12,735 nt of DNA from Rickettsiales bacterium (GTDB taxonomy: Bacteria; Pseudomonadota; Alphaproteobacteria; TMED109): positions 16,428-29,162 of the forward strand of contig PBGQ01000017.1 of assembly GCA_002720125.1 (NCBI GenBank), in the 5' to 3' direction. The first letter of the stretch is position 1, and every line of letters starts with the position of its first letter. Both the position numbers and the translations under genes were made by a program. Below are positions 996 to 9,160 of the stretch, piece by piece. The notes under the pieces are model-generated. The model was given only the letters and a program-made list of their open reading frames with translations, had not been told where the DNA came from and made no database searches.

Positions 996-1925
996 ATGTT
1001 AAAAGTTGCAGTACAAATGGACAGCCCTGAAAAACTAGACAAGAAGGGAGATAGCACCTTAGCTTTAATTGAAGAGGCATTAAAAAGAAACTTTTTTGTA
1101 TATATTTATAAGGTAGATGATCTCGCTTTAATAGACAACAAACCTGTAGCGCATGCAAGAAAGGTAACGGATATAAATATTAGATCTGAACACTTCATAA
1201 ATCTACAAAAAGAAAGGTTATTAATGCTTGATAGTTGTGATGTCATATTAGTAAGACAAGATCCGCCTTTTGATATGAACTATATCACAGCTACTCATAT
1301 TCTTGATAAAGTTAAGGAAGGAATAAAGGTAATAAATAAACCAGACTCCATTAGAAATTCGCCGGAAAAATTATTTGTTACAAATTTCTATCATCTCATG
1401 CCCCCTACTGTTATAGCGAAAAAAAAAACTACTATCTTAAACTATGTTAAAAAATTCAAAAAATCGGTCATCAAGCCTCTTTATGGAAATGGAGGTAAAG
1501 ATGTCTTCTATTTATCTAATAAAGAGCCTAACTTGAATGTAATAGTTGAAAAATTACTTAGCGAAAATCAGCACTTGATAGTTCAGAAATTCATAAATAA
1601 TGTAAAAAAAGGTGATAAGAGAATTTTACTTATAGATGGTGAACCGGTAGGAGCTGTTAATAGAGTACCGAAGGGTTCAGAAATTAGAGCTAACCTTCAT
1701 ATTGGTGCGACGGCAAGAAAATCAACTCTTAATAAAAGAGATTTATATATTTGCAAGCAAATTGGGCCCTTTTTAAGGTCTAAACAGCTCTATTTCACTG
1801 GCATTGACATTATAGACGGTTTTTTAACAGAAATAAACGTTACCTCTCCCACTTGTATAAGAGAGATTGATAAGTTGAATAAAACTAAAATTTCTGAAGT
1901 ATTTTGGAATAAGCTTAGCTTTTAA
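996..1925 (+). CDS. gshB: Glutathione synthetase
   Basis: GshB joins gamma-glutamylcysteine and glycine with ATP in the cytoplasm, the second step of glutathione synthesis. From the ATG at 996 the product has 309 residues, against about 316 in E. coli, and begins MLKVAVQMD, which matches the family N-terminus. In-frame TTG (951) and ATG (960) codons exist upstream but would add residues lying inside the preceding gene and unlike the family. Signatures in order are QDPPFDMNYITATHIL, NKPDSIRNSPEKLF, KPLYGNGGKDVF (ATP-grasp glycine loop), GDKRILLIDGEPVGAVNR and LTEINVTSPTCIREI at the C-terminus. A run of ten A at 1419-1428 encodes part of AKKKT and is in frame here. The gene is 10 bp after the BON lipoprotein gene and converges on the HIT gene with 14 bp between stops. 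No ribosome-binding site stands out. Confidence 0.95.
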   Translation: MLKVAVQMDSPEKLDKKGDSTLALIEEALKRNFFVYIYKVDDLALIDNKPVAHARKVTDINIRSEHFINLQKERLLMLDSCDVILVRQDPPFDMNYITATHILDKVKEGIKVINKPDSIRNSPEKLFVTNFYHLMPPTVIAKKKTTILNYVKKFKKSVIKPLYGNGGKDVFYLSNKEPNLNVIVEKLLSENQHLIVQKFINNVKKGDKRILLIDGEPVGAVNRVPKGSEIRANLHIGATARKSTLNKRDLYICKQIGPFLRSKQLYFTGIDIIDGFLTEINVTSPTCIREIDKLNKTKISEVFWNKLSF

Positions 1926-3373: not shown

Positions 3374-4087
3374 TTATTTTATATTAATAACTTTCTCTAT
3401 ATCAATTTTTTTCTCGTAGATTGCTTTTCCTATAATAACACCATAGACATTATTTTTCTTTAACTTTAATAAATCGGAGTAAGATGATACGCCACCTGAA
3501 GCTATTAAAGGAACTTCTATAGCTTTCTTATAATAAAGCGTATTTTTTATATTTGGACCTTTTAAAATTCCGTCTTTGTTAATATCGGTGTATATTATAC
3601 ATTCTACAGATAAGTCTGAAAACTTTTTAAAAAAGTAATCTGCCTTTTTTTCCTTTACAACTTTTGTCCATCCGTCTATGGCTACATAATTACCTAATAA
3701 ATCAAGGCCTACTGCTACCTTATTAGGAAAATTTCTAACAGCCTCTTTTACAAAGCTTGGATTTTTTATGGCCTCTGTTCCTACAATTATTCTATCTATA
3801 CCTAATTTAAGCCATTGTTCTATTCTTGATAACGTTCTAATGCCACCTCCCAGCTGTATTTTGCAATGAGATAAATTAGATATTTTCTCTATAGCTTTAG
3901 CATTCTTACTTTTTCCTGTTAACGCTCCATCCAAGTCAACTACATGTATCCATTTTGCTCCAGAATTTTCGAAAATTTTTATTTGTTTCTCTAAATTATG
4001 AGAATAGACTTTTTTTTTGTCGAAGTCACCATTACTCAGTCTAACTATTTTTCCTTCTGACAGATCAATGGCAGGAAAAATGATCAT
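3374..4087 (-). CDS. hisA: ProFAR isomerase (HisA)
   Basis: HisA performs the Amadori rearrangement of ProFAR to PRFAR, feeding the HisHF synthase. The 237-residue barrel protein shows D8 in [16 protein letters not shown] and D129 in VAVGLDLLG, the catalytic acid/base pair, plus [10 protein letters not shown] and [10 protein letters not shown] for phosphate binding. It is a few residues shorter than many homologues (about 240-245) but ends in the usual IIGKAIYE.K.. region. A nine-T run on the plus strand at 4010-4018 encodes KKK and is in frame. The ATG overlaps the stop of the upstream acetyltransferase gene by 4 bp (ATGA). Confidence 0.96.
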
Positions 4088-4605
4088 TGTTTTTCTAGTG
4101 ATTTATAATAAAATTTTCCACTTACCATTAAATTATTTTCCAATTTATGGTATATGGGCAAGCTCCCCCAGCAAACATACCCCATTTGTTCATATAATCT
4201 GATTGCCCTATTTTGAGTTTCTCTGACGTCTAATAATATATGAGTATATCTATTTTTAATACACTCTTTCTCTGCGCTTTCCATCAATGATTTAGCTAGT
4301 CCATGTCCTCTAGCCCAGGTGGCAACAAAATGGTTATCTATTGTTACTCTAAATAAGGCTACTTCATTGGAAGAAAAAGAAGAGACAACCTGAATAGATC
4401 CTGCCACCACTCCTTTTAATTTTCCAATAAAAAGCCACCTGTTTGGAACTAATAATACTCCTTGCCAATAGGATTTTACTCTGTTTTTAGGAGGTTTCTC
4501 TACCCATCCAAATCCTATTCCTTCTTCTATAGCATTCATCGTAGCGCTTGTTAACTCTTCTAGTTCGCCGTTTTTAAATTTTTCTATTTTATAAACTTCA
4601 ATCAA
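4084..4605 (-). CDS. GNAT-family N-acetyltransferase inside the his operon
   Basis: A 173-residue GNAT-fold protein. The acetyl-CoA pyrophosphate-binding signature is ARGHGLAKSLM (R..G.A type, about residues 98-108), followed by THILLDVRETQNRAIRLYEQMGY, the usual strand and helix before the GNAT C-terminal motif. The substrate cannot be read from sequence. It lies between hisH (1 bp gap) and hisA (4-bp overlap), so it is translated with histidine enzymes. The start appears to be TTG at 4605; there is no in-frame ATG upstream before a stop, and GGAAG lies about 7 bases before it. In relatives a small extra gene often sits between hisH and hisA, sometimes of another family. A role in histidine metabolism is only suggested by position. 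Confidence 0.82.
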   Translation of the reverse strand: MIEVYKIEKFKNGELEELTSATMNAIEEGIGFGWVEKPPKNRVKSYWQGVLLVPNRWLFIGKLKGVVAGSIQVVSSFSSNEVALFRVTIDNHFVATWARGHGLAKSLMESAEKECIKNRYTHILLDVRETQNRAIRLYEQMGYVCWGSLPIYHKLENNLMVSGKFYYKSLEKQ

Positions 4606-5856: not shown

Positions 5857-6404
5857 AAAACCTTATCCTTTTTTCTTAACAAAACGTATCTAGCACCATC
5901 TCCTCCATCTTTAATAGTAGCGAAACAATTTGCTAGTGACATGTAAGCGATATCTTCTTCTTTTAACCAATCAGGCAGAGACTCTCTTAATACTCCGCTT
6001 GCCCCCCAAAAAGTGTTTTTTTTTCCTGTGATAATCAAAATACATCTTAGATTATTTGAGACACTCTCCCTAATAAAATTTTTAACTACATTCTTGGCAT
6101 TATTTTTGGAATAGCCATGAAGGTCAAGTTGTGCTTCTATGTTTATCTTGCCTCTTTTAAGTTTTAATAAAGTACTTTTGTTAATCTGAAGATCTTCGTT
6201 AGCATTATTTTTCTTTTTATTTTCTTCAGAGGAACTAACATGTGTACGTTTTTGCGGTATTTTTTTTAATTTTTTATCAAGGGTTTTAGTAATTTTTTCA
6301 GCTTTGTTTTCATCTAAGTACTCTTTGATTTTTTTATCATTTTTTGTTACTTCTTTCCAAAGCTTCAATTCTTCTAAATTAACTCTTCTTATCTTAGAAT
6401 TCAT
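5853..6404 (-). CDS. Smr-domain protein
   Basis: A 183-residue protein with a lysine-rich, probably disordered N-terminal half (about residues 1-85) and a C-terminal Smr domain (about 92-178). Domain signatures are [13 protein letters not shown] (LDLHG at 93-97), CILIITGKK (about 121-129), [12 protein letters not shown] and [12 protein letters not shown]. Stand-alone Smr domains are nucleic-acid binding and some are nucleases acting on DNA or RNA; the exact activity here is unknown. The usual TGKG is TGKK here, encoded within a nine-A run (plus-strand T at 6016-6024), but spacing to the following motif is normal, so no frameshift is implied. The gene overlaps lldD by 11 bp and hisB by 4 bp. 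In alphaproteobacteria smr commonly lies beside mltA; here lldD separates them. Confidence 0.88.
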
Positions 6405-7539
6405 AAGGATATAAATTTTCTTTATTAAGATTGTTGCTGTTTGTTACTCCACATAAAGCCATAGTTATATCCAACTCTTTTTTAAGGATTTCTAAAACTT
6501 TTTTTATTCCGTTCTTTCCGTTAGCTCCTAGTCCATATAGATAAGGTCTTCCGAAAAAAGCTGCTTTTGCTCCAAGAGACAAAGCTTTAACTATATCTTG
6601 TCCTGACCTAATGCCTCCATCAAAATAAATATCAAGTTTATCTCCCAAAAGATTGGTAATCTTTTCTAGTGCCAGTATGGAGGACATTGTTCCATCTAGT
6701 TGCCTACCTCCGTGATTCGAAACTATGATACCTTCAATGCCCATGTTGTTTGCAATTTTAGCATCTTCTATATCTAAAATACCCTTTAAGATTATAGGCC
6801 CATTCCACATCTTTCTTATCCACTCTATATATGACCAAGATAAGCCTTGATCAAATTGTTCATGTGTCCATTTTACCATAGATGAGAGATCATTTACATT
6901 TTTTGCGTGCCCTAAAATGTTTCCAAATGTTCTATTTTTAGTTTTGGTCATCCTAATGCACCATCCTGGTCTTTGCATTAATTGAACTATATGGGACATA
7001 GTCAATTTAGGTGGTGCAGATAAACCATTTCTTAAATCTTGATGTCTTTGTCCTAGCACGGGAAGATCCATTGTAATAATTAAAGCACTACACTTGGCCG
7101 CTTTTGCTCTAGCTATTAGATTCTTTATAAAGTCTTTATCTTTCATTACATAAAGCTGAAACCAAAAAGGAACACTTGTATTTTTTGATATTTCTTCAAT
7201 TGAGCATATGCTCATCGTAGATAAAATGTAAGGAATATTGTTTTCTTCACAAACTTTTGCTGCTATTATTTCGCCATTAGGATAAAGCATACCTCCCATA
7301 CCTACAGGAGAAAAACCAAACGGAAAATCATAATTCTTGTTTAATATTTTTGTACTGTAGCTTCTATTGCTTATATCTATTCCCACTCTTTGTCTTAGTT
7401 TGATTTTCTTGAAATCCTTTTCATTAGAGTCATAAGTAGTTTCTGTCCAAGAACCGGAGTCCACATAATCATAAAACATTTTTGGAACCCTTTTTTTTGC
7501 CAGTCTTTTTAAATCATTAATTTCATATATTTTTTTCAT
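6394..7539 (-). CDS. FMN-dependent alpha-hydroxy-acid dehydrogenase, LldD-like
   Basis: A 381-residue flavoenzyme of the L-lactate dehydrogenase/glycolate oxidase family, which oxidises 2-hydroxy acids to 2-oxo acids and, for LldD types, passes electrons to the respiratory chain. Visible landmarks are MFYDYVDSG (active-site Tyr region, 21-29), FSPVGMGGMLYP (FMN binding, 76-87), WFQLYVMKD with Y130, TMDLPVLGQRHQDLRNG (157-172), GPIILKGI with K252, SNHGGRQLDG with catalytic H276 (274-283), DGGIRSG (308-313) and FGRPYLYGL. The C-terminus ITMALCGVTNSNNL is typical. L-lactate is the most likely substrate, but glycolate or another hydroxy acid cannot be excluded. It starts the tight run leading into the his genes, 51 bp after mltA, with no obvious metabolic link to histidine. 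Confidence 0.9.
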   Translation of the reverse strand: MKKIYEINDLKRLAKKRVPKMFYDYVDSGSWTETTYDSNEKDFKKIKLRQRVGIDISNRSYSTKILNKNYDFPFGFSPVGMGGMLYPNGEIIAAKVCEENNIPYILSTMSICSIEEISKNTSVPFWFQLYVMKDKDFIKNLIARAKAAKCSALIITMDLPVLGQRHQDLRNGLSAPPKLTMSHIVQLMQRPGWCIRMTKTKNRTFGNILGHAKNVNDLSSMVKWTHEQFDQGLSWSYIEWIRKMWNGPIILKGILDIEDAKIANNMGIEGIIVSNHGGRQLDGTMSSILALEKITNLLGDKLDIYFDGGIRSGQDIVKALSLGAKAAFFGRPYLYGLGANGKNGIKKVLEILKKELDITMALCGVTNSNNLNKENLYPYEF

Positions 7540-7590: not shown

Positions 7591-8585
7591 TTACTTATTC
7601 AGTTCTAGTGGCCACACCCTTATCTTCTTTTTTAATCCCGAAGCAATGAATTCTGCATTTTTACCAAAACCAGTGAATAAATCAATTCTGTATTTCCCTT
7701 TTATAGCATTACCCCTATCATGCGCCAATCCTAGAAAAATATCTTTTTTGTTTTCTATATTTTGTATTATAATAGGAGTTCCACTTTTAATATAACTATC
7801 ATCTACAGCTACACTTACTTTTGGAACTAGAGGAAGTTGACTACTACCTTCTATTTCCCCTTTGTAAACTTCAAAAAAAATGAATCTTTTATTTTTTTCC
7901 ATTATTTTTCTTGCTAAATTAGGGTTATCATAAAGCCACTTTTTTATACTGAACATATTTACTTCCTGCTTTTTTAGGTAACCTTTTTTTATAAGTATTT
8001 TACCAATGGATTTGTATTTCTTATTATTATTTCCTGCGTATTTTATTTTAATTACTTCCGTGTTAGAAAATTTAAGCCTTCCCGATCCTTGGATATGTAA
8101 AAAAAAAGCTTCTATTTCATTCTCTACCCACGCTATTTCTAAATTGTACCCATTTAAAGCTCCCCTGTTTATCTGTTGCCTAGATAACTCTGTTAATTTT
8201 TTATTACCTATGATGTTAGGGTTTTTGTAGATCGGATATCTACTATTCCCTTTACTTTTATAAGCCCTCAATTCTGGTTCATAATATCCCGTCATAAGGC
8301 CTATATTATTCACTTCTGGTATAAGGAAAAATTTTTCTTTTAAAAAATTTACTGCTTCTTTTGAGCTATATATCTTGCTAATACTCTTATCACACAAATT
8401 ATACTTAATTTTGAAGTTAGGTTTGTTTTCATTGCATGAATCTAAAATTAAATTTGTAGTTAACAATAAATTTTCATCATAATAATGTAAATTTCTCAGT
8501 AATGAGTTGTATTGGGTACTATCTTCTATGCGAAAGTGACAACTAGAAAAAAAAACATAATGATATAAATAGATAAAAAACGCAT
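7591..8585 (-). CDS. mltA: Membrane-bound lytic transglycosylase A, with apparent frameshift in the signal peptide
   Basis: MltA cleaves peptidoglycan to 1,6-anhydromuropeptides in the periplasm. The body shows LMTGYYEPELRA, FFLHIQGSGRL, YKSIGKILIKKG, the FFEV region, and the catalytic double-psi-barrel motif AHDRGNAIKG with D290 (restored numbering), then RIDLFTGFG. In its own frame the only usable start is TTG 8466 (291 aa), which removes the signal peptide and a conserved N-terminal segment, yet the frame stays open upstream to 8590. An ATG at 8585, overlapping the timA stop as TAATG, encodes a signal peptide MRFLSIYIIMFFF and hits TAG at 8526. One extra T (or a -1 slip) in the nine-T run at 8547-8555 joins the two as MRFLSIYIIMFFFSSCH, with lipid-attachment Cys16 and a 331-residue product (E. 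coli about 365). The cause may be sequencing error, slippage, or true decay. Confidence 0.85.
8547..8555 (-). other. Nine-T homopolymer at the mltA frame junction
   Basis: On the coding strand nine T lie directly after ATG codon 10 of the signal-peptide frame. Reading through in frame gives LVVTFA and a stop; a -1 ribosomal slip on TTT TTT, or a transcript with ten U, gives FSSC and the MltA frame. Both runs of T and the U_UUU_UUU heptamer are known slippage-prone sequences. Whether slippage happens here is inference. Confidence 0.6.
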
Positions 8586-9160
8586 TATTCTACGCTAACC
8601 TCAGTTAATAGCCAATTCGGATTTTGATTGTTTATTTCTTTTTCGAAAGTCCACACGTCCTTTATTTTTGTAGAACTTTCTTTACTGTTTTCTATATCTT
8701 GTGTTGACAAAAACTGTACTTTTATCCTGGCAAGCTTTTTTACTACTTCTACTTTTAATATGGAGGCATCTAGACTAGTAATTTTTATATTGCTCTTTTT
8801 TGAATTACTATCTTTGTTTTCTTCCATTGATTTCTTGAACGCCTTGTAGACATTCGTACTAATTAAATCTTTAGCTTTTTCAAGGGAATTTTGTTTATAT
8901 GAGGCAACAATAAGATTAAATGCTTTTTTAGCACCCTCTAAAAATACTTCATAGTTGAAGTTTTTATCTAGTTTAAGTAGTCTCTCTTGAGGGCTATCTG
9001 AGGAAATTTCAGGCTTTATGCTCTCTTCATCATTGAAAAATCTGGCATTTTCATCTTTAGTCATTAAATCTGATGAGTCTGTTTTCTTTCCCAATATCCT
9101 ATAGAGATTAGCTGCTAGCACTCCTGCAATTACAGCAAATATTATAATATCTATGTACAG
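8585..9160 (-). CDS. timA: Tim44/TimA-family membrane adaptor protein, probable CTG start
   Basis: The bacterial Tim44-like proteins are inner-membrane proteins with a cytoplasmic or lumenal Tim44 domain; their function is poorly defined. The likely start is CTG at 9160, with an AAGGAG site at 9167-9172 six bases upstream. This gives 191 residues: an N-terminal membrane helix MYIDIIIFAVIAGVLAANLY, then RILGKKT, which matches the family N-terminus (DIIIFA...RLRSVLGRRT type), an acidic linker to about residue 60, and a Tim44 domain from about 65 to 190 (EVFLEGAKKAFNLIVASY; VWTFEK; NWLLTEVSVE). A GTG at 9121 would yield 178 residues and cut the helix in half. No ATG fits before the upstream stop at 9184. 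The TAA overlaps the ATG of mltA (TAATG). In relatives timA sits next to mltA, as here; secB, often upstream, is missing. Confidence 0.82.
   Translation of the reverse strand: MYIDIIIFAVIAGVLAANLYRILGKKTDSSDLMTKDENARFFNDEESIKPEISSDSPQERLLKLDKNFNYEVFLEGAKKAFNLIVASYKQNSLEKAKDLISTNVYKAFKKSMEENKDSNSKKSNIKITSLDASILKVEVVKKLARIKVQFLSTQDIENSKESSTKIKDVWTFEKEINNQNPNWLLTEVSVE

Follow-up and report, generated by a model that had tools for sequence, protein, structure and literature searches.

A predicted lipoprotein gene, mltA, with signal peptide and enzyme body in different frames separated by a T-run in a marine alphaproteobacterial clade

How could a cell make a lipoprotein whose signal peptide and enzyme body are encoded in different reading frames? 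The question is raised by mltA in a 12,735-nucleotide stretch of a Rickettsiales bacterium (hereafter the window), which belongs to a MAG of 1.42 Mb in 51 contigs that is 79% complete. A first-pass annotation, made from the letters of the window, had placed a nine-T run between the two frames and had proposed that either the base count is wrong or slippage makes the lipoprotein, with changes in the length of the run acting as an on/off switch.

The mltA/timA junction in the window

The features of the junction are collected in Table 1. The layout described earlier was found again on re-reading the sequence: ATG 8585 overlaps the stop of timA in TAATG, the frame that it opens reads MRFLSIYIIMFFF and is terminated at 8526, the nine-T run is present as A9 on the forward strand, and the MltA frame has no ATG, GTG or TTG ahead of TTG 8466, its earliest ATG being that at 8295. 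A small detail had to be corrected, namely that the opening of the MltA frame lies at 8589 and not at 8587. In this frame the T-run is followed by F-S-S-C and then by HFRIEDSTQYNSLLRNLHYYDENLLL, while NLHYYDENLLLTTNLILDSCNENK is one peptide from the segment between the lipobox and TTG 8466. The start codon lies 44 bases from the cysteine codon, so that signal peptide and body do not share a DNA frame, and the one-base gain that had been said to restore a lipoprotein start ending in FSSC is the change that this distance requires. The frame split at the window mltA is thereby confirmed as real.

Table 1. Features of the mltA/timA junction and of the mltA body (positions in the window)
Feature	Position	Strand	Remarks
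timA (Tim44-like)	8585..9121	-	ORF; PF04280, E=2.1e-19; TAA stop overlaps mltA ATG
TAATG overlap	8583..8587	-	timA stop TAA 8587-8585 over signal-peptide start ATG 8585-8583
Start-frame ORF	8526..8585	-	MRFLSIYIIMFFFLVVTFA plus stop; signal-peptide n-region and hydrophobic core
T9 run (A9 on + strand)	8547..8555	-	putative slippage site; Phe in the frames used
Lipobox-like F-S-S-C	8539..8550	-	body frame; Cys codon 8541-8539
mltA body frame	7591..8589	-	open from 8589; TAG at 8592-8590
MltA domain PF03562	7873..8298	-	E=4.7e-41; residues 57-198 of ORF from 8466
3D domain PF06725	7606..7815	-	E=2.8e-14; residues 218-287 of ORF from 8466

By domain content the product is predicted to be an MltA lytic transglycosylase with a good, intact and conserved body. 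Its sequence matches to solved structures include MltA and GNA33 (PDB), and D222, D250 and D262 of the 3D domain are invariant among 12 clade proteins. An Rfam scan of the window gave zero matches. Elsewhere in the window, a gene for an FMN-dependent dehydrogenase (6394-7539) lies between mltA and an Smr-domain gene, and in the his cluster a GNAT acetyltransferase gene (4084-4605) separates hisA from hisH.

Recurrence of the split within the clade

The order is represented in the set by 28 genomes, all of one family, and an mltA match was found in 21 of these, namely the eight clade genomes (G000, G004, G005, G006, G015, G018, G019 and G020, from three genera, with L004 to L009 as contig records of six of them), G016 with a fragment only, and 12 genomes outside the clade; in the list of mltA loci, L011-L015 and L018-L036 were left uninspected. 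Comparison of the run in close relatives, as had been suggested, revealed the split together with a T-run in all eight clade genomes with a readable junction. In each, the start codon (ATG in four, GTG in two, TTG in two) shares bases with the stop of timA; a short n-region containing Lys or Arg comes next, and after it one or two T-runs, which measure 9; 10; 10; 9+9; 13+7; 11+10; 7+10; and 10, with a run of T9 to T13 in every genome. A body-frame cysteine after small residues is likewise present in all eight (SSC, TSC, ASC, TNC, TSC, TSC, SGC and ISC). The distances from start to cysteine are 44, 46, 44, 46, 35, 38, 41 and 40 bases, none of them divisible by three; the remainders (2, 1, 2, 1, 2, 2, 2 and 1) call for one additional base in five genomes and for one base fewer in three, and the sign of the shift varies inside two genera. 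An alternative start in the body frame is ruled out for L009 and L040, where a body-frame stop lies six codons upstream of the cysteine and therefore leaves no other start for the signal peptide, and in the window only rare codons such as ATC would be left for this role.

Counted from the cysteine onward, the eight clade proteins are 43 to 85% identical. In a midpoint-rooted tree of 15 rows, from which L044, L055 and L084 had been dropped, the off-frame rows form one side of a branch with a support of 92/93, which is below the 95/80 mark; the off-frame state is old. The stretch from the cysteine to GYYEP is constrained in close pairs, with dN/dS of 0.11/0.60 for L006/L007 and 0.21/1.57 for L004/L005, and in four distant pairs, where synonymous change is saturated, it has a dN/dS of about 0.5 to 0.7 and is under weaker constraint than the body. 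A private sequencing error is an unlikely source of the clade-wide split. Scans of viral contigs found no further junctions, with one weak mltA match (L177, 33%) and zero for timA.

Protein clusters of the clade, 105 in all, were obtained from the best 120 of 2489 and the best 120 of 943 protein matches, their clade boundary being set by a drop in identity and not by a tree; 96 of them reach GYYEP and count as informative, and the nine without GYYEP were dropped. As assigned by script with hand correction, and among the matches listed, five of the 96 start with an in-frame signal peptide (P0011, P0047, P0054, P0064 and P0098), seven at the lipobox itself and 84 beyond it; when the longest contig is at least 5 kb, two of 37 clusters among these matches are in frame. 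Against a random-frame expectation, 5/96 among the matches listed has a binomial probability of 2.7e-11, a value that assumes independence where the clusters are related and gene callers decide at which site each begins. P0002, which by eye is one residue off the window protein, is also called from TTG 8466.

Loci outside the clade and long runs in the same genomes

At all 41 loci checked outside the clade (12 from the family and 29 from the class, the latter drawn from the best 30 of 283 matching genomes), the mltA signal is in frame; in 40 of them an in-frame start ahead of a hydrophobic segment was picked up by a script, and in L092 it was seen by eye. Some of these outsiders come from AT-rich genomes, such as L044, which carries two T8 runs, and the family to which L080, L084, L088 and L090 belong. 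Relatives with a plain in-frame ATG, which had been named as grounds for refuting the split-frame reading, are thus confined to genomes outside the clade and to the five in-frame clusters within it.

As a control, long runs were surveyed in 1.15 Mb from G000 (393 kb, window included), G004 (391 kb) and G020 (361 kb). Among 300 runs of at least nine with coding sequence on both sides, 289 are in frame and at most 11 are off-frame. Because all eight readable clade junctions are split, against at most 11 of 300 long coding runs, the split exceeds what chance would give, and the idea that these genomes tend generally towards off-frame runs is rejected, apart from the cases named below. By eye, the 11 comprise four apparently real breaks (L067, L070 at 14885, L110 and L123 at 9633), four ambiguous cases (L071, L073, L123 at 12968 and L125) and three gene junctions (L075, L131 and L142). 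Three of the breaks, as seen by eye, fall on forward-strand runs in genes that seem to encode a TolC-like protein (A10, L070:14885), a DJ-1-like protein (A10, L110:15396) and an aminotransferase (A12, L123:9633). The A10 run inside gshB in the window (1419-1428) is in frame, unlike the mltA run.

Of the T-runs of at least eight close to gene starts, 57 are preceded by an in-frame start. Eleven lack one: three belong to mltA, one in each genome, another belongs to ileS of G000, and in the other seven a plausible start follows the run; nine more T-runs, including the first T9 of the L112 mltA, lie ahead of the frame. When coding sequence upstream of the first start was sought ab initio, mltA was flagged in G004 and G020, together with a dozen other matches in G004, and the window mltA was not flagged. 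A CaiB-like CoA-transferase gene on the reverse strand of L070 (7640) also has coding sequence before its first start, with an A10 run near. The T9 frame break in the essential gene ileS (L067:5702, G000 contig C11) leaves a frame of 766 codons, where 21 other genomes of the family have 930 to 1113, and could be an error or a break that slippage can rescue. The base count of the window is therefore less certain than the pattern of the clade.

Proposed polymerase slippage and competing explanations

We propose, with a probability of roughly 0.6, that the clade mltA is a live lipoprotein gene whose two frames are joined by RNA polymerase slippage on the T-run. A T-run of at least nine separates the signal-peptide start from the body, which is held in another frame, and RNA polymerase slipping on this run would produce mRNAs of mixed run length, of which those with the right number of U gained or lost would have joined frames. 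From these mRNAs, ribosomes that initiate at the codon overlapping the stop of timA would make prelipoprotein MltA, and from the remainder a short hydrophobic peptide (19 codons in the window). With the T-run inside the hydrophobic core, in which extra or missing Phe residues should make little difference, slippage would alter only the downstream frame. At the junction, as in slippage genes, an A/T run of about nine or more marks the frame change, the off-frame state is kept and the coding parts are conserved. We favor RNA polymerase because both gains and losses are needed, because no unusual RNA folding was seen downstream in five sequences, two of which began further from the run, and because a bacterial polymerase slips on at least seven T; the occurrence of both signs (five against three) agrees with a process in which bases are both gained and lost. 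According to the available text of one study, productive slippage of the E. coli polymerase occurs on at least seven T and more on T than on A runs, with insertions about three times as frequent as deletions (PMC6260861), and nine A/T is described, in an excerpt, as a run length that many genomes avoid (PMC1088944). Slippage as the source of the lipoprotein, one of the two outcomes first proposed, is in our assessment well supported as far as sequence can tell, the split being recurrent at differing run lengths. Against it stand the in-frame clade members (5/96 clusters among the matches listed), the weaker constraint between the cysteine and GYYEP in distant pairs, some G000 and G004 genes other than mltA that lose their frame at a long run, the T9 break of ileS among them, and transcription spectra which, in the accessible part of their source, include few homopolymer deletions and zero restored frames (PMC5574713).

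The same product would result if the ribosome, instead of RNA polymerase, shifted frame on the U-run. A U-run of at least nine contains U UUU UUU, which is a known slippery type, but the relatives need both signs of shift, unlike ordinary -1 programmed frameshifting, and downstream folding gave z-scores of -0.56 to 0.30 in five sequences, only three of which started at most two bases from the run end; we regard a ribosomal shift as unlikely. Slightly less likely still is phase variation at the DNA level, in which replication slippage would toggle mltA and the assemblies would have caught the off state. The on/off switch envisaged earlier shares its basis with this explanation, since the run length does vary among relatives and in-frame clusters exist, and the available text of PMC2831843 describes switching by homopolymers close to the 5' ends of genes; free switching should nevertheless leave about one third in frame, where none of the eight genomes (chance 0.039) and 5/96 clusters among the matches listed (binomial 2.7e-11, independence assumed) are, far below that share, and MltA does not stand out as a surface antigen.

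In 84 of the 96 clusters among the matches listed, gene callers place the start past the lipobox, as would be expected if MltA were made from a downstream start and had no signal peptide, or if the gene were decaying. A cytoplasmic MltA would be unable to reach its substrate, and the lipobox-like cysteine is retained in the body frame of all eight genomes next to an intact, conserved enzyme body, which makes this explanation improbable. We give marginally less weight yet to errors of base count in the assemblies. Long homopolymers are error-prone, and a wrong count is possible for the window MAG in view of its ileS T9 frameshift against at least 930 codons in 21 family genomes, but for the clade the split recurs in seven further genomes, the eight coming from differently named projects, and at least 289 of 300 coding runs of nine or more are in frame in three of them.

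Homopolymer frameshifts of endosymbionts were reportedly treated by Tamas (2008) and Wernegreen (2010). In Blochmannia and Buchnera, as described in the excerpted source, such frameshifts are rescued by transcriptional slippage (PMC3017870). The clade mltA resembles these cases in its AT-rich reduced genome, in a break that occurs only at an A/T run of an otherwise intact gene and in breaks that are common to several species, whereas it differs in that its hosts are marine bacteria, with metagenome and single-cell-type records, and not insect endosymbionts, in that the run is of T and lies inside a signal peptide, and in that the sign of the shift changes yet the gene stays off-frame. Programmed transcriptional slippage in Thermus dnaX and in IS elements likewise involves an A/T run of about nine, with the off-frame product set by the RNA run length, but dnaX gives two useful products, where the unslipped mltA product would be a short hydrophobic peptide (available portion of PMC1088944). 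Phase variation of Helicobacter pylori pldA also lets homopolymer length set the frame (PMC11756786, PMC11768039), although, in the accessible text, pldA is off in about 12% of strains (PMC11768039), as compared with nearly all clade members for mltA. Helicobacter papers considered as precedents for a lipoprotein signal were rejected, as they concern other tracts. In the literature searched, no paper turned up that describes an mltA signal peptide split at a slippage site, which is not proof of its absence in print. What is new here is the site, in the core of a signal peptide, the hosts, which are marine metagenome lineages, and a persistent off-frame state with changing sign.

We infer RNA polymerase slippage, its product and a lowered enzyme dose from these comparisons. 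More tentatively, the off-frame state itself may be selected, with the T-run serving as a conserved attenuator that keeps a dangerous enzyme, one that cuts the cell wall, at a low dose and tolerates any off-frame length. If polymerase slippage does join the frames, a marine lineage depends on it for a cell-envelope enzyme, and the rescue of the endosymbiont type would extend beyond insect hosts and become a regulatory layer. In addition, gene callers would be assigning a false cytoplasmic start to MltA throughout the clade, and a frame broken at a long run in a genome of this kind should be compared with relatives before it is put down to a pseudogene or an error.
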